Shown in pieces: positions 5,958 through 64,000 of a stretch of 64,000 bases of DNA. Under the pieces are notes generated by a model that was given only the letters and a program-made list of their open reading frames with translations, searched no databases and was not told where the DNA came from. A program made the position numbers and the translations under genes. The stretch comes from Candidatus Enterousia intestinigallinarum. Lineage in GTDB: Bacteria > Pseudomonadota > Alphaproteobacteria > Rs-D84. Numbering within the stretch: position 1 is the first letter of the stretch; the number at the start of each line of letters is the position of its first letter. The stretch is from assembly GCA_944407095.1 (NCBI GenBank), contig OX097180.1:310001-374000 (forward strand), read 5' to 3'.

Positions 5958-5963
5958 ACTGAC

Positions 5964-6176
5964 GTTGACAGGTATTCTGTCAATGGGGTGTGACTACCCT
6001 TATGAACGCGTCGGAATATACAAACATGGCGCACAAAGTGCGCTGTTTTAATATTACGACGAAAAATAAACTCCTGAACATTTAGGTCAGGAGGGTCGCT
6101 GAATATCAAATACGCGACACAATTCGTTCAATTGTAGTCAACCTCCTGACCACCAAAACGCTTGGTGGTTTCTTTT
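5964..6176 (+). ncRNA. Structured leader RNA, copy A (upstream of cassette 1)
   Basis: Cis-regulatory RNA candidate. P1: TTGACAG 5965-5971 with CTGTCAA 5977-5983, then GGGGTG. P2 is long range: TGACTAC 5991-5997 with GTAGTCA 6134-6140, extended by TGAACG 6003-6008 with CGTTCA 6125-6130. An inserted hairpin (CGTCG...CGACG with GCGCAC/GTGCGC inside) lies at about 6009-6064. P3: CTCCTGA 6071-6077 with TCAGGAG 6087-6093. P4: GTCGC 6095-6099 with GCGAC 6114-6118 around the conserved GAATAT loop. A second CTCCTGA at 6143-6149 can compete for the P3 partner. It ends with terminator stem ACCACCAA/TTGGTGGT (6149-6156, 6162-6169) and TTTCTTTT. This copy is the most diverged, yet every helix is kept by paired changes. 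Confidence 0.8.
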
Positions 6177-6202: not shown

Positions 6203-6640
6203 ATGCACAAATATTTCTTAATCGCCGGCGCAATTTGTATCGCCACAATTTCACCAACTTTTGCAATATCCGTAATGCCAATTGGTGGTGTAACAAAATG
6301 CGTACAGTTATCACGTTCAACAACATGCGTCGCTGAACAACAAGCATCTACATCTAAAGTAGATTGGTCTGTAACTTGTGGCACAAAAAATATATCAGTC
6401 ATTGGAATTAGTATGTGCGCATCATCAAGCGGCAGTGCGGGCACCGCAAGCACATCATTATCAAGATCCGATGAAAATAATAACTGTTGGTGCAAAATGG
6501 TTTCACCTGCTGTTTCCAGATGGATATCCAGTGGCTTTTCTTCTGTTGCTTGCCACAGGGATTGCGCAGGTTCTTGCAGACGCGCATTGGAAGATAATTC
6601 CACCTTTCGTTCGGCAATGTTCAGTAATTTATCTGACTAA
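6203..6640 (+). CDS. Cassette 1 first gene: exported Cys-containing protein
   Basis: Unknown function; one of five paralogs. It has 145 residues. The ATG at 6203 follows AGGAG by 7 bases. The signal peptide MHKYFLIAGAICIATISPTF precedes a mature part with TKCVQL near the start, a variable middle, and the family block NNCWCKMVSPAVSRWI. It ends FRSAMFSNLSD as in the other copies. Predicted to be exported and disulfide-bonded. It is cotranscribed with the small partner gene 18 bases downstream. It sits behind a leader RNA with a terminator, so expression is probably attenuated. Compared with the other copies it has an extra segment (ISVMPIGG) after the signal peptide. Confidence 0.85.
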   Translation: MHKYFLIAGAICIATISPTFAISVMPIGGVTKCVQLSRSTTCVAEQQASTSKVDWSVTCGTKNISVIGISMCASSSGSAGTASTSLSRSDENNNCWCKMVSPAVSRWISSGFSSVACHRDCAGSCRRALEDNSTFRSAMFSNLSD

Positions 6641-8782: not shown

Positions 8783-10513
8783 ATGAAAAAAATCTTCACA
8801 TTTTTAATAGCAATATTCTTGCCGTTTGCGGCGATTGCCGCCGACCGGCCTGATATCAATGTACTGTCCGACGCGGACGCAAGTTTATACACTCAAATTT
8901 TCCTGTTGCAAAGCGAAGAAGAAATTTCCGCGGCACAAAAATTGGAAAAGCAACTATCCGATCCATTATTGATGAACGAGGTTTTATACCAACGCTTCAT
9001 ATCCAAGACATATCGCACCCGTGGCAAAGAACTGGTATCCTGGATGGAAAAATATTATGATATGCCGGGTGCAGAACGTATGGCAAAACTGGCCAAAATA
9101 AAACAGGCAACCGTTCGCAAGCCATATCTTCCCCGCACAATCAGTGGCGGCGCATCAATCGAAACGGCCCAATCGGAAACCTGGACGGCAAAGAAATATA
9201 CCGGGGACACCAATACAAAGATTACCAAATTCAAGCGCGCAATCCGCAGTGGCGCCACAAAAACTGCCCGATTGATACTGGAAGACGCGTCGTTCAAGCG
9301 CAAACTGACCGAATCGGACTATGGTCGCCTGGCGGGACGTTTATCATTTATATATTATACGAACGGCGAATTTGAACTGGCGAAAAAATGGGGTTTTGTC
9401 GCATCCGATGCAAAATCGGAATACGGCCTGTGGGCAATGGGATTATTGTATTTCAAGGAAGAAAAATATAAAGAAAGTGAAAAGTATTTCAGTGCAATCC
9501 TGGATTTGGAACAAATAAACAACGCCAGAAAGACCGAGGCCGCATTCTGGGCTGGTCGTGCGGCGGACGCCAATGGCGAACGCAGTGCCGCTAAAAAATA
9601 CTGGAAAATTGCGGCGGCACACCCAATGGCGTTTTACGGTGCATTATCGTCGGTAATGCTGGGGCACACCCCGCGTTATGAATTTTTCGAACAGGACTGT
9701 ACCGACGAAGACATCGACACATTGCGCGAGACCAAGTACGGCAAAATCGCCCTGGGGCTATTACAGGTTGACCAGAAAGACCGCGCGGAACAATATCTGA
9801 AATATATGATTACGGCCAAGGTTTCTGACCGCACATTGCACGCAATAAATTCTGTGGCAACGGCGTACGGACTGCCCCGCGTATCAATTCAGGCGTCCAG
9901 TTTAATAAAAGACCGCGGCATTTTGGAAATCGACGACAATATTATTTATTCGGCACAATATCCCCTGCCCGATTGGGAACCGATGGGCGGCTGGTCTATT
10001 GACCGGGCATTGTTGCTGGCCATTACAAAGCAGGAAAGCGGTTTCCGCACAAACGCTAAATCTGGGGCTGGTGCAAACGGCCTGATGCAGATTATGCCCA
10101 GTACCGCCAAACGCGTCGCGCGTGAAAACAAGGTAAATATGTCCGATATTGATATGTTAAATCCAGAACACAATATGTTCCTGGGGCAACAGTATATTGT
10201 GGACCTGTTGGCGCATCCAAACATAAACAACAATATAATAAAAATGTTGGCCGCATATAACGCCGGGATGGGAACCCTGGTTGAATTTGAACGCGATTTT
10301 CAAACATACGATCCATTATTGTATATCGAAAGTTTTCCGACATACGAAACCCGCAGTTATATCAAGCGTGTAATGTCAAATATGTGGCTGTATCGCGCCC
10401 GACTAGATCAACCATTGACCACTATGCGTGATTTAGCGGACGGCGAATGGCCACTGTACAACAGCGAAGATGAATACGTTCAAAAGCAGATTGCCGACCG
10501 TATGGCGATTTAG
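8783..10513 (+). CDS. Soluble lytic murein transglycosylase (GH23, Slt70-like)
   Basis: Periplasmic enzyme that cleaves peptidoglycan glycan strands to 1,6-anhydro products. It has 576 residues. The signal peptide MKKIFTFLIAIFLPFAAIAA comes first, then a long helical repeat region (about residues 30-410, the U-shaped superhelix of Slt70), then the SLT catalytic domain. The catalytic glutamate lies in AITKQESGFRTNAKSGAGAN, followed by GLMQIMPSTAKRVA and MLAAYNAGMGTL. An upstream ATG at 8744 overlaps nrdR and would spoil the signal peptide, so 8783 is chosen. Its stop overlaps the stop of the convergent Xre gene by four bases. Confidence 0.95.
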   Translation: MKKIFTFLIAIFLPFAAIAADRPDINVLSDADASLYTQIFLLQSEEEISAAQKLEKQLSDPLLMNEVLYQRFISKTYRTRGKELVSWMEKYYDMPGAERMAKLAKIKQATVRKPYLPRTISGGASIETAQSETWTAKKYTGDTNTKITKFKRAIRSGATKTARLILEDASFKRKLTESDYGRLAGRLSFIYYTNGEFELAKKWGFVASDAKSEYGLWAMGLLYFKEEKYKESEKYFSAILDLEQINNARKTEAAFWAGRAADANGERSAAKKYWKIAAAHPMAFYGALSSVMLGHTPRYEFFEQDCTDEDIDTLRETKYGKIALGLLQVDQKDRAEQYLKYMITAKVSDRTLHAINSVATAYGLPRVSIQASSLIKDRGILEIDDNIIYSAQYPLPDWEPMGGWSIDRALLLAITKQESGFRTNAKSGAGANGLMQIMPSTAKRVARENKVNMSDIDMLNPEHNMFLGQQYIVDLLAHPNINNNIIKMLAAYNAGMGTLVEFERDFQTYDPLLYIESFPTYETRSYIKRVMSNMWLYRARLDQPLTTMRDLADGEWPLYNSEDEYVQKQIADRMAI

Positions 10514-10860
10514 TCCGCCACATTTAACGCCACAGCAATTTTGGCAATAACATCACGTTTTTTACCCGGCAATTTATAAATCAGGGTTATCAAATCTGCC
10601 ATTGGCTTATCGTGAATATAATCGGCATTTGATTCTGTGTAAAATGCGGACGGCGATATTTCAAATATATGACAAAGTTCATTTAACAGTGCGGCACTAA
10701 TTCGGCATTGGCCACTTTCATATTTGTGAATTTGCTGAAATGTGACACCTATTTTGTCACCTAATTCCCGTTGGGTCATTCCCATACGTGCACGTAGCAT
10801 CACCATAACACGTCCGACACAAATATCAAATTCGTTCACCTGATGCTTTTTTCCGCCCAT
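10510..10860 (-). CDS. Xre-family HTH transcriptional regulator
   Basis: DNA-binding regulator of 116 residues. A Cro/C1-type helix-turn-helix spans residues 15-70 (VGRVMVMLRARMGMTQRELG, then DKIGVTFQQIHKYESGQCRI). The C-terminal helical tail ends KRDVIAKIAVALNVAD. Many alphaproteobacteria have such proteins. The ATG at 10860 follows GGGGGGAATT, and a longer frame upstream runs into the leader RNA and is rejected. It is the only gene behind this leader RNA that is not a secreted-protein cassette, which suggests it shares their regulation or controls them. Target genes are unknown. Confidence 0.92.
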   Translation of the reverse strand: MGGKKHQVNEFDICVGRVMVMLRARMGMTQRELGDKIGVTFQQIHKYESGQCRISAALLNELCHIFEISPSAFYTESNADYIHDKPMADLITLIYKLPGKKRDVIAKIAVALNVAD

Positions 10861-10871
10861 AAATTCCCCCC

Positions 10872-11054
10872 ATAATAAAAAACCACCGGAAAATATTTTC
10901 AGGTGGGTTGGAGGTTCACAACTATTAGTACGAATAGCGTGCTTTATTGGATATTCAGCACCCTCCAACCCCAGGGTTGGAGAACTTTTCATTTCGTCTA
11001 TACGAAACGCGTACTATCGGGTTGTGACACCCCATACCGGCAACACGCCGATAC
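10872..11054 (-). ncRNA. Structured leader RNA, copy F (upstream of the Xre regulator)
   Basis: Read on the minus strand. P1: CGTATCGG/CCGGTATG (11054-11047 with 11039-11032), then GGGGTG. P2: TCACAAC (11026-11020) with GTTGTGA (10921-10915), extended by TAGTACG (11015-11009) with CGTACTA (10931-10925). A local hairpin TTTCGT/ACGAAA follows. P3: CCAACC (10979-10974) with GGTTGG (10969-10964). P4: GTGCT (10960-10956) with AGCAC (10942-10938) around GAATAT. The terminator is CCACC-tGAAAA/TTTTC-cGGTGG, then TTTTTT, ending near 10874. TATAAT at 11066-11061 places the transcript start at P1. Helix sequences differ from the other copies but still pair. Confidence 0.8.
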
Positions 11055-11117
11055 GACAATAATTATATATGAAAACTTTTCCATTTGCCATAAATTTATG
11101 GTATGGTTTTAATCGCT

Positions 11118-12931: not shown

Positions 12932-13210
12932 CTATTCCAGCGGACACGCAGACGTAAATTCATATGAACCGCTGTCGTCGGTATAAGTTACCCCGGTTGG
13001 CGCATACATTATGCACGAACCGGCCGGTGACGACGCCAGACAACTGTCCGCCGTACCGGCGGATGTATATCCACTGGGACACGTGCTGTCCGCGATTTCC
13101 ATATACGATTCCACAACCGCAACATAACCCGCCGGACACGACGTGGACGGTGCGGCGGCAAATGCGCCAATCGGCGCAATCGCCATAATTAAAATAAATA
13201 TTCGTTTCAT
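12932..13210 (-). CDS. Cassette 2 second gene: small exported protein
   Basis: Unknown function; 92 residues. The signal peptide MKRIFILIMAIAPIGAFAAA is followed by PSTSCPAGYVAVVESYMEIA, a TCPSGYTSAG core and the ending SCIMYAPTGVTY plus DDSGSYEFTSACPLE. Its mature part is almost identical to copies at 20757, 55427 and 63147, which implies recent duplication or gene conversion. The ATG at 13210 follows GGGGGCG. It lies 12 bases behind its partner gene. Confidence 0.87.
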   Translation of the reverse strand: MKRIFILIMAIAPIGAFAAAPSTSCPAGYVAVVESYMEIADSTCPSGYTSAGTADSCLASSPAGSCIMYAPTGVTYTDDSGSYEFTSACPLE

Positions 13211-13222
13211 ATTCGCCCCCAT

Positions 13223-13645
13223 TTAGTCAGATAGTCCACTATACAGCCCCGCCCGCCCAGGCTCACTCTCCTCGGAGATGAACCCACAGTTGTTCGAGCA
13301 CCCGTCAGCGCAATGCCCGGCGGAATCGTGGGTGTAGGCGAAAACCCAGCGCGACACCGCGGGCGAAACCATTTTGCACCAACAATTTTTGTTATCGTCA
13401 CTGGTTGAACTGGTCGTGACTTTTTCGGATTTTGTACCCATTGAACCACCATTTTGAGATCCGCAAAATGCAACACCCTGAATTTCTATACCGCCACAGG
13501 TTGCTGACCAATTTGACTGACCGAACGCGCCAGAGACACTTGTACACGTTGTTGATGACGTTAGTTTTACGCATTTTGTGACCGCATACGCTGGTGGGAT
13601 TGATGCCGCACAAATTATGCCGGCGATGATTAAATGTTTTTTCAT
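13223..13645 (-). CDS. Cassette 2 first gene: exported Cys-containing protein
   Basis: Unknown function; 140 residues. The signal peptide MKKHLIIAGIICAASIPPAYA is followed by VTKCVKLTSSTTCT. A variable centre contains GSQNGGSMGTKSEKVTTSS. The conserved block KNCWCKMVSPAVSRWV follows, then a Cys-containing tail ending LYSGLSD. The ATG at 13645 has an ideal AGGAGG seven bases upstream; longer frames start inside the leader RNA. Its stretch from GGIEIQGVAFCGS is close to the copy at 54995, while the tail differs, as if parts were shuffled between copies. Confidence 0.87.
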   Translation of the reverse strand: MKKHLIIAGIICAASIPPAYAVTKCVKLTSSTTCTSVSGAFGQSNWSATCGGIEIQGVAFCGSQNGGSMGTKSEKVTTSSTSDDNKNCWCKMVSPAVSRWVFAYTHDSAGHCADGCSNNCGFISEESEPGRAGLYSGLSD

Positions 13646-13671
13646 TCTAAACCTCCTTTTCATTGCGAATG

Positions 13672-13833
13672 AAAAAACCACCAAAATATTTCAGGTGGTT
13701 GGAGGTTAGTAACTATTAAAGGTAATAGTGTCGTTTATTCAACATATTCACGAACCCTCCAACCCGTATCAGTTGGAGTATTGATTTCCTTTAAGAGGTT
13801 ACTACACCCCGCATTGGTAAAATCACCAATGCA
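13672..13833 (-). ncRNA. Structured leader RNA, copy B (upstream of cassette 2)
   Basis: Read on the minus strand. P1: GCATTGGT (13832-13825) with ACCAATGC (13818-13811), then GGGGTG. P2: TAGTAAC (13804-13798) with GTTACTA (13713-13707), extended by TTAAAGG (13794-13788) with CCTTTAA (13722-13716). P3: CTCCAAC (13778-13772) with GTTGGAG (13763-13757). P4: TCGT (13753-13750) with ACGA (13734-13731) around GAATAT. A second CCTCCAACC overlaps terminator stem AACCACC/GGTGGTT (13700-13694, 13682-13676), followed by TTTTTT. TATAGT at 13844-13839 places the start at P1. The T-run can also pair with AATGAAAA just before the AGGAGG site. Confidence 0.82.
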
Positions 13834-13868
13834 AAAACACTATACCGCACAAAAACGAATATTTCCAT

Positions 13869-20095: not shown

Positions 20096-20101
20096 AAAAA
20101 T

Positions 20102-20273
20102 GATATGGGGTGTTCCCATATTGGGCTTAAGAACCCATCCGTTGCGTCGCCACGACGTAAAATGAAAATCCAACCTGTTGGGTTGGAGTGTGTTGAATAT
20201 ATTGAATAAAACACGCAATTCAACGGATTGTTCTTAAACTCCAACCACCTGAAGATTTCTGGTGGTTTTTTCA
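20102..20273 (+). ncRNA. Structured leader RNA, copy C (upstream of cassette 3)
   Basis: P1: ATATGGG 20103-20109 with CCCATAT 20115-20121, then GGG. P2: TTAAGAAC 20127-20134 with GTTCTTAA 20230-20237, extended by ATCCGTTG 20137-20144 with CAACGGAT 20221-20228. A local CGTCG-cca-CGACG hairpin follows. P3: CCAACC 20170-20175 with GGTTGG 20181-20186. P4: GTGTT 20190-20194 with AACAC 20210-20214 around GAATAT and AATAAA. A second CTCCAACC (20239-20246) overlaps terminator stem AACCACC/GGTGGTT (20243-20249, 20261-20267) with a T6 run. The T-run can also pair with ATGAAAAA before the GGGAG site. Confidence 0.85.
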
Positions 20274-20303: not shown

Positions 20304-20744
20304 ATGAAAAAATATTTATTAATCGCCGGGTTGATTTGCACGGTAATAATTCCCCCGGCCGGCGCAGTCACCAAATGCGTGGAATTAAATAGTAGCACAA
20401 CGTGTACATCAAATTACACTGCATACTACAATAAAACTGATTGGGCAGCCACGTGTAATACAAATGGAGTAAGCATCCCAATAAGTGGCATAGGAATATG
20501 TAGTAGTACACAGGGAACTCAATATCAAACAGCAGCAGAACTAGATAGATCGTCCACACTGGACGAAAACATAAATTGCTGGTGTAAAATGACGAGTCCT
20601 GCTGTATCGCGCTGGGTGTATGTTTCAACGCCCACGTATGCCGATGGTTGCTTTAAGCTTTGCGCATACTACTGTGCAAACACTATTCGCATTCAGAGCT
20701 CTACGTCTTTCCGGTCTGCGTTGTTTAGTAATTTGTCTGACTAA
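20304..20744 (+). CDS. Cassette 3 first gene: exported Cys-containing protein
   Basis: Unknown function; 146 residues. The signal peptide MKKYLLIAGLICTVIIPPAG, then AVTKCVELNSSTTCTSNYTA. The middle, about 60 residues, is unlike the other copies. The conserved INCWCKMTSPAVSRWV block is followed by a five-Cys tail (GCFKLCAYYCANT) and the family ending FRSALFSNLSD. The ATG at 20304 follows GGGAGATAAG. Exported, probably disulfide-bonded. Partner gene 12 bases downstream. Confidence 0.87.
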   Translation: MKKYLLIAGLICTVIIPPAGAVTKCVELNSSTTCTSNYTAYYNKTDWAATCNTNGVSIPISGIGICSSTQGTQYQTAAELDRSSTLDENINCWCKMTSPAVSRWVYVSTPTYADGCFKLCAYYCANTIRIQSSTSFRSALFSNLSD

Positions 20745-20756
20745 TTGAGGGCGAAT

Positions 20757-21035
20757 ATGAAACGAATATTTATTTTAATTATGGCGATTGCGCCAATTGG
20801 CGCATTTGCCGCCGCGCCGTCTACTTCGTGTCCCGCCGGATACGTTGCGGTTGTGGAATCGTATATGGGAATCGCGAACAGCACGTGTCCCAGTGGATAT
20901 ACATCCGCCGGTACGGCGTACAGTTGTTTGGTATCGTCACCGGCCGGTTCGTGTATTATATATGCGCCAACCGGGGTAACTTATACCGACAGCAGTGGTT
21001 CATATGAATTTACATCCGCCTGTCCATTGGAATAA
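20757..21035 (+). CDS. Cassette 3 second gene: small exported protein
   Basis: Unknown function; 92 residues. Signal peptide MKRIFILIMAIAPIGAFAAA, mature part nearly identical to the other cassettes, with small changes (YMGIANSTCPSGYTSAGTAY, SCLVSSPAGSCIIY). The ATG at 20757 follows GAGGGCG. A perfect-looking terminator follows. Predicted to be exported; stable disulfides are likely from six cysteines in the mature part. Confidence 0.87.
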   Translation: MKRIFILIMAIAPIGAFAAAPSTSCPAGYVAVVESYMGIANSTCPSGYTSAGTAYSCLVSSPAGSCIIYAPTGVTYTDSSGSYEFTSACPLE

Positions 21036-32864: not shown

Positions 32865-33115
32865 ACGAATCCACAGGGATGTGGGTTCGGGGTCGTAAGA
32901 AAACCTAACCAAATCCGACATATCGTTATGTCGTAATCCGCCTGGGGATAAATTACGGCGCGATTTGGGCGCCTTTTATTATCCCGCACCCCGCAATACA
33001 GGTCGGGGGGCCGTCAGTTATAAAACAGGGTTTCCCGAAAACTGGCGGGGTCACGATTTGGTTGATTTTCTTAACTCCCCGACCGCCACATCTGTGCTGA
33101 TTTGGCGGCGTTTTT
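32865..33115 (+). ncRNA. Candidate structured ncRNA with a long closing rod
   Basis: A gene-free stretch with promoter, structure and terminator. Bases 32868-32915 and 33055-33102 form an imperfect inverted repeat of 48 bases each. Segments that pair include CACAG/CTGTG, ATGTGG/CCACAT, CGGGG/CCCCG, TAAGAAAA/TTTTCTTA and AACCAAATC/GATTTGGTT. Inside are hairpins CGACAT/ATGTCG (32916-32933), GGGATAA/TTATCCC around GGCGC/GCGCC (32945-32985), and CCGTCAGTT/AACTGGCGG (33011-33048). The terminator CCGCC...GGCGG-cgTTTTTA is at 33083-33115. I saw no conserved pieces of RNase P, SRP RNA or tmRNA. 6S RNA was considered, but the multi-branched inside does not fit. Confidence 0.7.
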
Positions 33116-33143
33116 ATTGGGGAAAAAATCCTGACAAATTTTA

Positions 33144-33210: not shown

Positions 33211-36200
33211 ATGTCCAGATACAAACATTTAGCCGATTTGCTAAAGATTTGCTCTGTACTGCCCGCGTTGGCCGTTATGCCGGCGTTTGCAGCAGTTGAT
33301 ATAACCGAAGGGCAAGTAATAGAAAATCAAACAAATAATGACGGTGCTAATCAGAATGCTGCGGGATTGACAATTACATATGGTGATTCACTGACAACGT
33401 CGGGGGTCAACAATGTAACATTTAATAATAATTCATCCGTAAATTCTGGCGGTGCGATGAAGGCATTAAATGGATTTGTCGCGGGTGATGGCTGGACATT
33501 TACAAATAACCATTCTGACAAGATGTCTGGTGGTCTGTACGTAAAAATCCCAGAAGATGCCGAATCAAACAGAAATATTGTACTTGGAAACGGGACAACA
33601 TTTTCTGGCAATACATCGGTAGGGCCGGGTGGTGCACTGGGTATTGAATCCGCAGGCACGGTCACAATCGGTGACAACACGAAATTTGAATCCAATTCCA
33701 CAGAAGCGGACGGTGGCGCAATCGCAATCTGGACAGACAAATCCAATGGCGCAACAAGTGGCACTGAACTGACACTGGGACGTACTGATTTTACCGGCAA
33801 TACGGCTGCAAACCGTGGTGGTGCCATTGCCAACCTGAATAATGACAAAGCTGAAGATAAAACAGATTTCTATAACACCGTAAATATTGCATCTGGTTCG
33901 ACGTTTACGGGAAATTCTGCCAAAACAGGTGGTGCGATTTACAATCTAGGAACAATGAATGTCGATGGCACATTTGACGGCAACAGCACAACTGCTACAC
34001 GTGGTCACGGCGGCGCAATTTATAACGCTGGCGAAATGTCCGTTGCTGGAACATTTAAAAATAACACCGCAACAAATGCAGCCAGCCAAGGTGGCGCAAT
34101 ATATAACAGCGGCACCCTGACCGTTGCAGACAATACCGTATTCAGTGGCAATTCAACCGATACCGGTGACGGTGGGGCAATATACAATTCCGGTACGTTA
34201 AACATTGGTGACAATGTTACGTTTTCTGGAAACACCGGCGACGGCACATTGTTTATGGGCACCGGTGCCACAACCACAATCGGCGACAATGTAAAGTTTG
34301 TTGATAACACACACGGAACACGCGGTTTACAATCTGGTGCAATATCCCTGGGTAATAATGGTAATTTGACAATCGGCAAAGACGCCTTGTTCCAGGGTAA
34401 CAAAGCAGCCCTAACAGGTGGCGGTGCAATAAAAGCATCATATGCAGATTCACATCTGACAATCGCTGATTACGCACAGTTCATTGCCAATTCCAGTACA
34501 AAAGCTGGTGGTGCATTATATCTGGGCAGCAATAATATGAATCTGGGCAGTGACTTTATATTTGTAAATAATACTGCAACCCAGGGTGGTGCCATATTCT
34601 ATAATTCAATGAACACAAATCTGGCACTAAATAATTTCACATTTTCTGGCAACAAAGCAACAGATACCGCCGCTGGCATAGGTGGTGCCATTGCAGTTGG
34701 AACAAATGCCGCAGGCGAATTGAATATAAATAATTCAATATTCAGTTCTAATACGGCGGCTGTTGCTGGTGGTGCGATATCTCAGGCCGATGGGTCAACC
34801 GCGACGATAAACATTGATGAATCAATATTTAAATCGAACTCGGTCGATGCCGAAGGTGGCGCCATTGTTTCCGATGCGACAATGACGATTACTAATTCTG
34901 AATTTATCGGGAACAAAACAACTGGAACGGTAAAAATCGAGGATGTTGAAGAAGGTCAACCCGCCTATTATGCAAATAATGGTGGTGGCGCAATATTCTT
35001 GTATGACCAATCCAACACCACAGTTCGTGATTCTGTGTTCAGCCAGAATTCATCCGGCACATACGGCGGTGCAATTTCCACACGTATCGGCGCATCGGCA
35101 GAAAATTCATCGTTGACGATTGACGGTGCAACATTTACCGACAATACAGCTGGTGTGAACGGTGGTGCAATATATAACACCGTTGCTATGACCCTGAACG
35201 GTGAAAACGTGTTCAGTGGCAATATGGCGGGCGGTGCTGCAAACGATATTCATAATATCGGCACAATGACGGTTGCATCCGGCACAACAACACTGGGCGG
35301 TGGCATCACTGGAAACGGCGCGTTGACAATCGCAGACGGTGCAACATTGGATATCGGCACAACAACCGTTGAACAGGCATCCATCGACATCGACGGTACA
35401 TTGAACGCATCTATGTTGAGTTCCGACAACTATGGCAAATTGTTGGCTGACAGCATTACAACCGGTGAAAACGGCAAACTGCAACTGACAATCGGCAGTG
35501 TCGGCACATACGACATATTCGGCGGCATTGCGCACGAAGACATCACCATTGATGCTGGCCTGGCGTACGACGTCATAAACAATGGCGCGGACGGTATTGA
35601 AATCGCTATCAAGGCGGTTGAAGATATCGCGGCAGACACCGGCCTGTCCAACCAGGGCGCAGCCACAATCGCGGTGTTGGCCAATACAGATGACGATGTT
35701 CTGACTGCAATTTCATTGCGCGCCCAAACTGAACTGGAGGCAGGCAATGTTGATTATGTCGAACACGAAACGGCTAAACTGAATCCAGAAAACAAACCGG
35801 TTGCACATTCCATTTCGTCATCCGTCCAGAACCAGGTTCTGTCACTGGCGGCGGGCCGTATGACTGGCGGCACAGTTGGACGCAGCGGTGGTGATTTGGC
35901 AAATGCAGATTATGGCATCTGGGCCCAGGGTCTGTATAACCATTCTAAATTAAATGGCCAGTTCAAGGGCGACACGACCGGTATTTCCGTCGGTGCAGAC
36001 GCATTAATTGACGGTAAATACACAATCGGTATCGGTTATGCGTACAACGATACAGACGTTGATTCTGATTCTCGCGATACGAAAATCGAATCGAACAGCT
36101 TGTTCCTGTACGGCCAATACAAACCGAACAACTGGTATGTCAATGCCGCGTTGAACTATACAATGGGCAACTATACGGAAACATCAAATCCGTTCGGTGT

Positions 36201-36675
36201 TCAGTTTGAATCCGAATACGATGTCGATTCGTTCGGTGGCCAAGTTATGACCGGTTATGATTTCGCATCTGGTCTGACCCCGGAAATCGGCGCACGTTAC
36301 CTGCACATCAGCCAGGACGCGTATGACGTCGCTTTGGGTCACGTTGACGGCGCAGATATGGATTATCTGACCGGTGTTGCGGGTATCCGTTACGCGTTCG
36401 AAATCGAATCGGATATGGAATTGAAATTCCGTCCAGAACTGCGTGCGGCGGCGACATATGATTTCTTGTCTGATGCAGCGGTTGCGACAATAACCGCCCC
36501 GGGCAGCGTATCATACGTCATCGACGCCGATCGTCTGTCACGCTTTGGCGGCGAATTTGGCATCGGCCTGGCTGCCGAATGGCGTGGTCTGACAGTATCA
36601 TTGAACTATGATTTGGATCTGCACGAAGATTACACTTCACAGACCGGTATGTTAAAGTTCAGATACGACTTCTAA
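33211..36675 (+). CDS. Autotransporter with long GGAI-repeat passenger and beta-barrel
   Basis: Type V secreted surface protein, 1154 residues. The signal region MSRYKHLADLLKICSVLPAL ends at AFAA. The passenger is a right-handed beta helix with more than a dozen GG(A)I(Y/F)N-type motifs and NxxFxGN turns to about residue 700. The linker has SSVQNQVLSLAAGRMTGGTV. The last roughly 260 residues are the barrel, ending LKFRYDF. It resembles the minus-strand autotransporter at 30250 through the passenger end (GGAANDIHN) and the whole barrel. The ATG follows AAAGGAG. Probable adhesin; the ligand is unknown. Confidence 0.93.
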   Translation: MSRYKHLADLLKICSVLPALAVMPAFAAVDITEGQVIENQTNNDGANQNAAGLTITYGDSLTTSGVNNVTFNNNSSVNSGGAMKALNGFVAGDGWTFTNNHSDKMSGGLYVKIPEDAESNRNIVLGNGTTFSGNTSVGPGGALGIESAGTVTIGDNTKFESNSTEADGGAIAIWTDKSNGATSGTELTLGRTDFTGNTAANRGGAIANLNNDKAEDKTDFYNTVNIASGSTFTGNSAKTGGAIYNLGTMNVDGTFDGNSTTATRGHGGAIYNAGEMSVAGTFKNNTATNAASQGGAIYNSGTLTVADNTVFSGNSTDTGDGGAIYNSGTLNIGDNVTFSGNTGDGTLFMGTGATTTIGDNVKFVDNTHGTRGLQSGAISLGNNGNLTIGKDALFQGNKAALTGGGAIKASYADSHLTIADYAQFIANSSTKAGGALYLGSNNMNLGSDFIFVNNTATQGGAIFYNSMNTNLALNNFTFSGNKATDTAAGIGGAIAVGTNAAGELNINNSIFSSNTAAVAGGAISQADGSTATINIDESIFKSNSVDAEGGAIVSDATMTITNSEFIGNKTTGTVKIEDVEEGQPAYYANNGGGAIFLYDQSNTTVRDSVFSQNSSGTYGGAISTRIGASAENSSLTIDGATFTDNTAGVNGGAIYNTVAMTLNGENVFSGNMAGGAANDIHNIGTMTVASGTTTLGGGITGNGALTIADGATLDIGTTTVEQASIDIDGTLNASMLSSDNYGKLLADSITTGENGKLQLTIGSVGTYDIFGGIAHEDITIDAGLAYDVINNGADGIEIAIKAVEDIAADTGLSNQGAATIAVLANTDDDVLTAISLRAQTELEAGNVDYVEHETAKLNPENKPVAHSISSSVQNQVLSLAAGRMTGGTVGRSGGDLANADYGIWAQGLYNHSKLNGQFKGDTTGISVGADALIDGKYTIGIGYAYNDTDVDSDSRDTKIESNSLFLYGQYKPNNWYVNAALNYTMGNYTETSNPFGVQFESEYDVDSFGGQVMTGYDFASGLTPEIGARYLHISQDAYDVALGHVDGADMDYLTGVAGIRYAFEIESDMELKFRPELRAAATYDFLSDAAVATITAPGSVSYVIDADRLSRFGGEFGIGLAAEWRGLTVSLNYDLDLHEDYTSQTGMLKFRYDF

Positions 36676-54755: not shown

Positions 54756-54784
54756 TTGCATTAAAATAACTAACACGATATTAT
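54756..54784 (+). promoter_or_regulatory. Promoter of leader RNA copy D
   Basis: TTGCAT (54756-54761) and TATTAT (54779-54784), spacer 17. Start at P1 of the leader. Confidence 0.65.
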
Positions 54785-54790
54785 AAACAA

Positions 54791-54964
54791 TGTCGGTGGG
54801 TATTCCGCCGATGGGCTTAAGAACCCGTCAGTAGCGTCGGCAAGACGTAAAATAAATCCAACCGTATTTTGGTTGGAGTGTGGTGAATATATTGAATAAA
54901 CCACGCAATTACTACTGATTGTTCTTAAACTCCAACCACCTGAAGATTTCTGGTGGTTTTTTCA
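54791..54964 (+). ncRNA. Structured leader RNA, copy D (upstream of cassette 4)
   Basis: P1: TCGGTGG 54793-54799 with CCGCCGA 54805-54811, then GGG. P2: TTAAGAAC 54817-54824 with GTTCTTAA 54921-54928, extended by GTCAGTAG 54827-54834 with CTACTGAT 54912-54919; copy C has ATCCGTTG/CAACGGAT here, a clean set of paired changes. Hairpin CGTC-ggcaa-GACG. P3: CCAACC 54858-54863 with GGTTGG 54871-54876. P4: GTGG 54880-54883 with CCAC 54901-54904 around GAATAT. The terminator AACCACC/GGTGGTT (54934-54940, 54952-54958) overlaps a second CTCCAACC. Confidence 0.85.
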
Positions 54965-63121: not shown

Positions 63122-63147
63122 CAAAACGCCCATTTGGGCGTTTTGCT
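63120..63147. terminator. Bidirectional intrinsic terminator
   Basis: AAAACGCCCatttGGGCGTTTTG between convergent genes. Confidence 0.8.
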
Positions 63148-63428
63148 TATTCCAACGGACAGGCGGATGTAAATTCATATGAACCGCTGTCGTCGGTATA
63201 AGTTACCCCGGTTGGCGCATACATAATACACGAACCGGCCGGTGACGACGCCAGGCAACTGTACGCCGTACCAGCAGATGTATATCCACTGGGACACGTG
63301 CTGTCCGCGATTTCCATATACGATTCCACAACCGCAACGTATCCAGCGGGACACGAAGTGGACGGCGCGGCGGCAAATACACTAATTGGCAAAACTAATA
63401 AAAATAAAATAAATATAAATTTGTTCAA
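63147..63428 (-). CDS. Cassette 5 second gene: small exported protein with TTG start
   Basis: 93 residues. The only in-frame start with a ribosome binding site (GGGGGAAAAA) is the TTG at 63428. The signal peptide MNKFIFILFLLVLPISVFAA is unlike the other copies, yet from AAPSTSCPAGYVAVV onward the mature protein is almost identical to cassettes 2 and 4. This points to recombination at the signal-peptide/mature boundary. Exported, six cysteines in the mature part; function unknown. Confidence 0.85.
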   Translation of the reverse strand: MNKFIFILFLLVLPISVFAAAPSTSCPAGYVAVVESYMEIADSTCPSGYTSAGTAYSCLASSPAGSCIMYAPTGVTYTDDSGSYEFTSACPLE

Positions 63429-63443
63429 TTTTTCCCCCTTATG

Positions 63444-63848
63444 TCAATTTTCAAAACTGCCAAACATCCCCTGCTTGAAGTCAGCATTTGTAAAAGCCGT
63501 ACTACATTGTTTCGCACAGCCGTCAGAACACGTGCCATACGATGCCATTGTCCAATCAGATACAGCAGGCACCGTCATTTTACAAAAACAATACCTTCCA
63601 CTTTCAGAAATATTGACGGCTTCCTGTGTTTTTCCCGTTGTGGGTGGCATTGGTCCAGTACTTGAACATACAGCCACCCCAGATATTGGAACGCCACCAC
63701 ATCTGCCATTAAAATCTGTATTTGAACCCGAAGTCGCCGAAACTGTACAAGAAGAACTGGCAGTAAATGCTACACACTTTGTCACCGCATACGCTGGTGG
63801 GATTGATGCCGAACAGATTATGCCGGCGATGATTAAATGTTTTTTCAT
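63444..63848 (-). CDS. Cassette 5 first gene: exported Cys-containing protein
   Basis: 134 residues. Signal peptide MKKHLIIAGIICSASIPPAY as in cassettes 2 and 4, then AVTKCVAFTASSSCTVSATS. The middle is unique (NTDFNGRCGGVPISGVAVCS). The WCKM block is replaced by YCFCKMTVPAVSDWTM, and the tail has CSDGCAKQC and the diverged ending KQGMFGSFEN. The most altered C-terminus in the family. The ATG at 63848 follows AGGAGG. Partner gene 15 bases downstream. Confidence 0.85.
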   Translation of the reverse strand: MKKHLIIAGIICSASIPPAYAVTKCVAFTASSSCTVSATSGSNTDFNGRCGGVPISGVAVCSSTGPMPPTTGKTQEAVNISESGRYCFCKMTVPAVSDWTMASYGTCSDGCAKQCSTAFTNADFKQGMFGSFEN

Positions 63849-63874
63849 TCTAATCCTCCTTTTCATTGCGAATG

Positions 63875-64000
63875 AAAAAACCACCAAAATATTTCAGGTG
63901 GTTGGAGGTTAGTAGCTATTGTAATAATAGTGTTGTTTATTCGTGATATTCACAACCCTCCAACCTAAATTGTGGAGGCGATATTTTATGTCATCTCTGA
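63875..64000 (-). ncRNA. Structured leader RNA, copy E (cut by window end)
   Basis: Minus strand, 3' part only. P3: CCTCCA (63978-63973) with TGGAGG (63962-63957). P4: GTTGT (63956-63952) with ACAAC (63936-63932) around GAATAT (63951-63946) and GAATAAA. The P2 3' strand is present (AATAGCTACTAA), but its partner lies outside the window. Terminator AACCACC/GGTGGTT (63903-63897 with 63885-63879) with a T6 run. Sequence is close to copy B near the gene. Confidence 0.78.

Follow-up and report, generated by a model that had tools for sequence, protein, structure and literature searches.

The window analysed here, 64,000 nucleotides of the genome of Candidatus Enterousia intestinigallinarum, contains at six places a leader RNA with the same arrangement of helices, and raises the question of what kind of RNA this is and how it might act on the genes behind it. 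C4-type RNAs are folded RNAs with which bacterial viruses keep a gene of their own silent. The leaders are likely to be chromosomal, multi-copy relatives of the C4 and sRNA-Xcc1 antisense RNAs, rebuilt as two-state transcription attenuators that act in cis.

An earlier note had described a repeated leader RNA with covarying helices and a terminator at six positions in the window. A covariance model built from five copies (R1) and refined on 82 copies (R2) recovers exactly these six and no others (Table 1), and the P4-loop pattern has six matches in the window with none expected from 100 shuffles; the P2 and P4 pairings listed in that note are also correct. It missed the competition between helices, a promoter at the 5′ end, another copy (the seventh) belonging to a second class, and the gene context that the copies have in common.

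Table 1. Leader copies in the window and parts of the copy at 54789-54963 (window coordinates)
Feature	Position	Strand	Evidence or context
Leader copy, described in parts below	54789-54963	+	P1 at predicted transcription start through terminator; R2 186 bits, E=2e-45
Leader copy, long form with additional hairpin	5961-6175	+	5′ of gene A-type ORF 6203-6640
Leader copy	10876-11057	-	5′ of XRE/HTH_3 regulator, ORF 10510-10860
Leader copy	13671-13835	-	5′ of gene A-type ORF 13223-13645 and gene B-type ORF 12932-13222
Leader copy	20099-20272	+	5′ of gene A-type ORF 20304-20744 and gene B-type ORF 20745-21035
Leader copy	63874-64000	-	5′ end outside window, runs on to contig position 374049; 5′ of gene A-type ORF 63444-63848 and gene B-type ORF 63147-63428
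Class-2 leader, seventh copy	32866-33118	+	Upstream of autotransporter-like ORF 33211-36675; helices
Promoter TTGCAT, 17 bp, TATTAT	54756-54784	+	Sequence
P1 hairpin, counterpart of first c4-a1b1 hairpin	54792-54812	+	8/8 pairs change on both sides
H2 hairpin GGG/CCC, 8-nt loop with a1	54813-54826	+	Same element in RF03163
a1, 5′ strand of P2a	54817-54824	+	Partner a′ 54921-54928; covariation
b1, 5′ strand of P2b	54827-54834	+	Partner b′ 54912-54919 in P5 loop; covariation
P2c hairpin CGTC/GACG	54835-54847	+	Covariation
Segment a, 5′ arm of P3	54857-54863	+	Pairs with b
Segment b, 3′ arm of P3 and 5′ strand of C4 outer stem	54870-54879	+	GGU start, cf. C4 RNase P site
P4, conserved loop TGAATATATTGAATAAA	54878-54906	+	Loop pattern, covariation; P4 of RF02221
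P5 hairpin CAAT/ATTG, loop is b′	54906-54921	+	Covariation; P5 of RF02221 and C4
a′, 3′ strand of P2a	54921-54928	+	Covariation
Segment c, partner of b in C4 outer stem, putative antiterminator	54929-54938	+	3′ end is terminator 5′ arm
Intrinsic terminator AACCACC/GGTGGTT and U-run	54934-54962	+	Sequence
Gene A, small exported Cys-rich protein, 139 aa	54995-55414	+	No Pfam match
Gene B, small exported Cys-rich protein, 92 aa	55427-55705	+	No Pfam match above cutoff

The 1.0-Mb genome contains about 27 leader copies (covariance model, E<1e-3), and seven of those that match the exact loop pattern are clustered within 66 kb around the window. Class-2 leaders have the same switch layout as class 1, with the P4 loop UAUACAACAG or one near to it, and are long and divergent, which hinders a good alignment (n=6). 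The class-2 copy in the window has the P4 loop TTATAAAACAG and a b:c stem of GGTCGGGGGG/CTCCCCGACC, is matched by the Rfam family RF02221 (E=8e-6; contig positions 343001-343092), and stands before a gene with an autotransporter-like product of 1154 aa. Further class-2 copies are located at contig positions 6061, 30245, 217168, 448455, 651860 and 790745.

Across 115 distinct copies, in an alignment fitted to the model so that the pairing figures lean towards the model's own helices, 95.1% of cells pair and 42 of the 50 pairs vary on both sides; none of 500 shuffles is as good and slid registers give 31-46%. Double changes are found in 1279 cells as against 332 in shuffles. A phylogeny-aware null, computed with our own script by re-placing substitutions on the tree in 100 simulations, leaves 22 model pairs significant (E<0.05), and the proposed covariation holds. 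The best-conserved unpaired bases are those of the P4 loop. Class-1 copies also fall into two subtypes (GGGC..U..G..A/U..A and GGGG..G..A..U/A..C at alignment columns 28, 91, 117, 119, 131 and 140) whose letters change jointly, partly across non-pairing positions.

The fold of the earlier note was built on P2, and its helices are real, but P2 is not the sole fold: three helices outside the model compete with helices of that fold and likewise covary in register (95.0% of cells pair when they are taken together, matched by 0 of 500 shuffles). The first, b:c, joins the 3′ arm of P3 to the segment between P2a and the terminator and rivals both P3 and the terminator (pair 89-138, E=0.03; pair 84-143, E=0.3). 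H2 is the GGG/CCC helix around the 5′ strand of P2a, which it rivals, with the exchanges GAGG/CCUC, GUGG/CCAC, CGAG/CUCG and UCGGA/UCCGA. P5, in the same relation to P2b, is the CAAU/AUUG helix around the P2b 3′ strand and is exchanged for CUAU/AUAG, CUGU/ACAG, CCGU/ACGG and CUAC/GUAG. A free hairpin search finds P5 in 163/169 but also in 49% of shuffles and is not discriminating; support for the predicted P5 comes from its covariation and from RF02221. The b:c helix is 9-11 bp long in 161/169, mostly taking 4-5 nt of the terminator 5′ arm, and the letters of b and c vary jointly across at least 10 types (e.g. CUCCAACC, CUCCUGACC, CUCUCGCC, CUUCCUGCC and CUCCCCGGCA).

Mean computed energies are -12.4 kcal/mol for P3, -10.0 for the terminator and -17.9 for the b:c duplex. 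Enforcing b:c gives a pseudoknot-free fold of P1, H2, P2c and a b:c stem around P4 and P5, which is the nested C4 fold; it is ~14 kcal/mol less stable than the terminator fold, and 8 kcal/mol less stable before the terminator 3′ arm exists. Interlocked pseudoknots (H2 with P2a, P5 with P2b) were our first reading, which was set aside since the comparison with C4 and the precedent of IsrK make two alternative folds the simpler account; H2 and P5 could nevertheless coexist with P2 as pseudoknots, which would count against two folds.

An intrinsic terminator is present in 169 of 172 elements, and a TATAAT-like box (at least 4/6) lies 5′ of the element in 168 of 172, usually at a spacing of 3-4 nt; boxes of at least 5/6 are found in 142 elements as against 15% in controls. 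Because this sigma-70-like promoter ends 3-4 nt upstream in most copies, P1 is probably the 5′ end of the transcript. The start codon of the next gene lies 15-32 nt 3′ of the terminator in 24 of the 27 genome copies, and one further copy precedes a 32-codon ORF. Eighteen of the products are exported (mostly Cys-rich and without Pfam match; signal peptides judged by eye), six are XRE/HTH-like, and one resembles the PDC-S11 candidate defence nucleases; four orthologous genes of ~385 aa behind leaders are PDC-S11-like (E=3e-9 for the copy tested). The exported Cys-rich families A and B have no Pfam match above cutoff and are always paired, the pairs in the window sitting at the five gene A-type ORFs of Table 1 and the ORFs next to them.

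Within the order, 180 of the 201 genomes searched carry the element, as do 19 of 23 genera, and 14 genomes from other families of the class have weaker full-length matches (E 1e-8 to 1e-18); copy numbers from these multi-genome scans are lower bounds because just the best candidates per genome were scored. Genes behind the leaders encode glycosyltransferases, RgpF and PAP2 in relatives, and pseudopilin-like proteins, outer-membrane barrels, lipoproteins and XRE proteins in the other families of the class, where several copies lie close to the ends of contigs, like repeats in assemblies. Among public genomes the loop pattern also caught an Alphaproteobacteria MAG from horse faeces. Gene A was not found in viral contigs, and the copy at 54789-54963 has no nucleotide match in phage and plasmid records; the 27 loop-pattern matches in viral contigs are at about chance level for an AT-rich pattern. 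Tandem gene-less units, each with its own promoter, lie 22-86 nt apart in runs of up to five. Such runs of 2-5 promoter-leader-terminator units stand 5′ of small XRE-like genes, and neighbouring units keep their flanks but have different P2a and P2b, changed as matched pairs in the way that internal gene conversion might leave them.

The earlier note knew no described RNA family with this layout. It is true that no Rfam family matches the class-1 copies of the window at gathering score, but the order of parts is that of phage C4 (RF01695) together with c4-a1b1 (RF03163), and the nearest Rfam relative is sRNA-Xcc1 (RF02221). As in C4, a hairpin (P1) is followed by a hairpin with a1 in its loop (H2), by b1 (the 5′ strand of P2b), and by a core in which the outer stem b:c encloses P4 and P5 with b′ in its loop, a′ standing before c; at C4 loci RF01695 corresponds to the core and RF03163 to P1 and H2. 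In one alphaproteobacterial copy the 5′ half has a weak match to RF03163 (E=0.004), and RF01695 has no match in the genome, so that the leaders lie below its gathering cutoff. Segment b begins with GGW in 141 of 164, as does the site at which C4 is cut by RNase P (PMC5320573), and cleavage of the leaders is putative.

The C4 RNA of phages P1 and P7 uses a2b2, located at the ribosome site, to repress icd/ant translation, whereas the leaders lack a2b2: around the ribosome site behind the alphaproteobacterial leaders, own segments find no more matches than permuted and shuffled controls do. The leaders also differ from C4 in that their terminator overlaps the outer stem and their genes are not antirepressors. 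A terminator precedes the core in 11/169 alphaproteobacterial leaders (control region 17/169) and follows it in 165/169, whereas the counts before and after the core are 23/30 and 1/30 at RF02221 loci and 7/11 and 0/11 at C4 loci. What is new is an outer core stem that consumes 4-5 nt of a post-core terminator missing in phage-type loci. Given the late terminator and the missing ribosome-site target, the output has probably shifted from translation to transcription. The IsrK family (RF01394; Salmonella prophage Gifsy-1) overlies the 5′ half of C4-type loci, and its transcript switches experimentally between two alternative folds that match those proposed below, its read-through transcript being a trans target of short IsrK (PMC4825925); unlike the leaders, its output is translation of orf45/anrP and its terminator stands before the core. 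The C4-like Group 1 RNAs of Acinetobacter baumannii have many copies per genome, variable a′ and GGW processing (PMC5320573), but are described as sRNAs and not as attenuator leaders.

RF02221 has no match to a class-1 copy of the window even at E<10, and matches class-2 leaders from this genome, as well as distant alphaproteobacterial copies, at E=6e-7 to 5e-4 over b-P4-P5-c, with scores of up to 49.2 bits for class 2 and 51.7 for a distant copy (gathering cutoff 53). The RF02221 consensus fold (outer stem, P4 with AAUACAA...GGAAUAA, P5) is found in the alignments and helices, its outer stem being b:c. The sRNA-Xcc1 RNAs resemble the leaders in their b-P4-P5-a′-c core, outer stem and upstream P1/H2(a1)/b1 half, and the P4 loops are alike (GAAUAU...GAAUAA in the class-1 leaders). 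At 30 loci of other Proteobacteria the flanks outside the Rfam model contain strands complementary to a′ and b′, corresponding to H2/a1 and b1 (best complement 8.8 as against 6.2 in shuffles; at least 7 in 90% of own and 21% of shuffled flanks), and a correctly placed, full-length R2 match falls at one such locus (E=0.003). The RF02221 loci differ from the leaders in that the terminator stands ahead of the core with none behind, and copies of a and b often lie at the ribosome site of the gene that follows. These 30 loci stand upstream of antirepressor-like genes (Bro-N and KilA-N type by eye) and others. In Xanthomonas sRNA-Xcc1 lies upstream of symE, a position like that of the leaders (PMC12444791), in Xylella it is present in five tandem copies (PMC12189769), and it has been observed as an 88-nt RNA (PMC2996969).

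On these comparisons, sRNA-Xcc1 looks like a C4-type RNA of which the Rfam model covers the 3′ half alone; in the literature searched, the one paper naming both treats them as separate families. The sequences point to homology of the class-1 copies of the window to RF02221 and C4 by way of intermediates, their own scores lying below any Rfam threshold. The family is a divergent C4/sRNA-Xcc1 variant with a new output stage, and is real, abundant and order-wide. The leaders are not described in the available parts of the literature searched, where the thousands of unnamed motifs of a human-microbiome screen (PMC8040213) could include them.

The leader has the layout of an attenuator, with a terminator and an antiterminator that are mutually exclusive, and its predicted function is as follows. 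Transcription would start at P1. In fold A, a1:a′ (P2a), b1:b′ (P2b) and a:b (P3) would pair and leave c free, so that its 3′ end forms the terminator and transcription stops with the release of a ~172-nt RNA (OFF). Fold B is the C4 fold: here H2 and P5 would close on themselves and b:c would enclose P4 and P5, using up the 5′ arm of the terminator so that polymerase reads into the gene (ON). OFF is the expected default because computed energies favour the terminator fold; some factor would have to favour fold B, and the large energy gap, with which fold B would be rare unless so favoured, counts against the scheme. Fold B may be favoured by an RNA that competes in trans for a/b or a′/b′, as short IsrK does, or alternatively by a factor that binds P4. 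For such a factor P4 is the likeliest site, because it differs between class 1 and class 2 while the switch is common to both. Segments a and b fit between genome copies in 8 of 552 ordered pairs and within their own copy in 19 of 24, and such private sequences would insulate any action in trans; their divergence may also be neutral, since P1 drifts just as freely although nothing elsewhere pairs with it.

Other accounts place the control elsewhere. An RNA-binding antiterminator protein acting on P4 could govern a surface-protein regulon, and the presence of one loop, the most conserved of the unpaired bases, in many copies is consistent with this; the genome encodes a single NusG-type protein, which also removes an RfaH/LoaP-like antiterminator from consideration, and we hold this account to be unlikely. 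A metabolite riboswitch, in which P4 and the junction form an aptamer and a common small molecule flips the two folds, would suit the terminator/antiterminator layout, the large common regulon, and the one P4 loop conserved across class 1 with a different one conserved in class 2. It is, however, quite improbable: RF02221 and C4, to which the leaders are related, are antisense RNAs and not riboswitches, the regulated genes have no common pathway, and c-di-GMP and (p)ppGpp are unlikely signals because the genome encodes neither GGDEF nor RelA/SpoT domains. No known Rfam riboswitch class matches the leaders above gathering score, the best being the azaaromatic riboswitch at a chance level of E=1.2. 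An attenuator of the trp type, with ribosome stalling, was rejected as there is no conserved leader-peptide frame (the distance from the P1 loop to b modulo 3 is distributed 29/50/43); no ribosome site was found between promoter and P1.

The leaders might instead constitute a C4-type family of trans-acting sRNAs, with a terminated or RNase P-processed core that hits other mRNAs and an adjacent gene that is incidental. The 88-nt form of sRNA-Xcc1, the GGW start of b and the gene-less tandem copies with promoters of their own are in keeping with this, but the start of a gene 15-32 nt behind the terminator in 24 of 27 copies, the lack of a ribosome-site target in cis and the scarcity of cross-compatible a/b pairs leave it little credence. 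That the leaders are an unrelated class of RNA with a C4-like layout reached by convergence would agree with the missing Rfam match of the class-1 copies in the window, and is highly improbable in view of the graded chain from class 1 through class 2 and distant copies to RF02221 (E to 6e-7) with the same seven-part order.

The cis-acting attenuator derived from C4/sRNA-Xcc1 remains the preferred reading, and under it sRNA-Xcc1, which is classed among trans-acting sRNAs, would probably represent the 3′ half of a leader of C4 type, with symE directly behind it in Xanthomonas. A more tentative idea, possible but rather doubtful, is that throughout the order an RNA of phage immunity has been domesticated into a set of privately addressed attenuators, in which RNA from a gene's own locus silences or switches that gene through its own a/b sequences. 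If true, a 1-Mb genome without GGDEF or RelA/SpoT, the usual enzymes of nucleotide second messengers, would contain dozens of insulated RNA switches, and an RNA of phage superinfection immunity could turn into a host-wide device of gene control, its block of translation becoming an end to transcription. The leader offers a handle on the control of exported Cys-rich, outer-membrane and XRE genes in little-studied gut-type bacteria.
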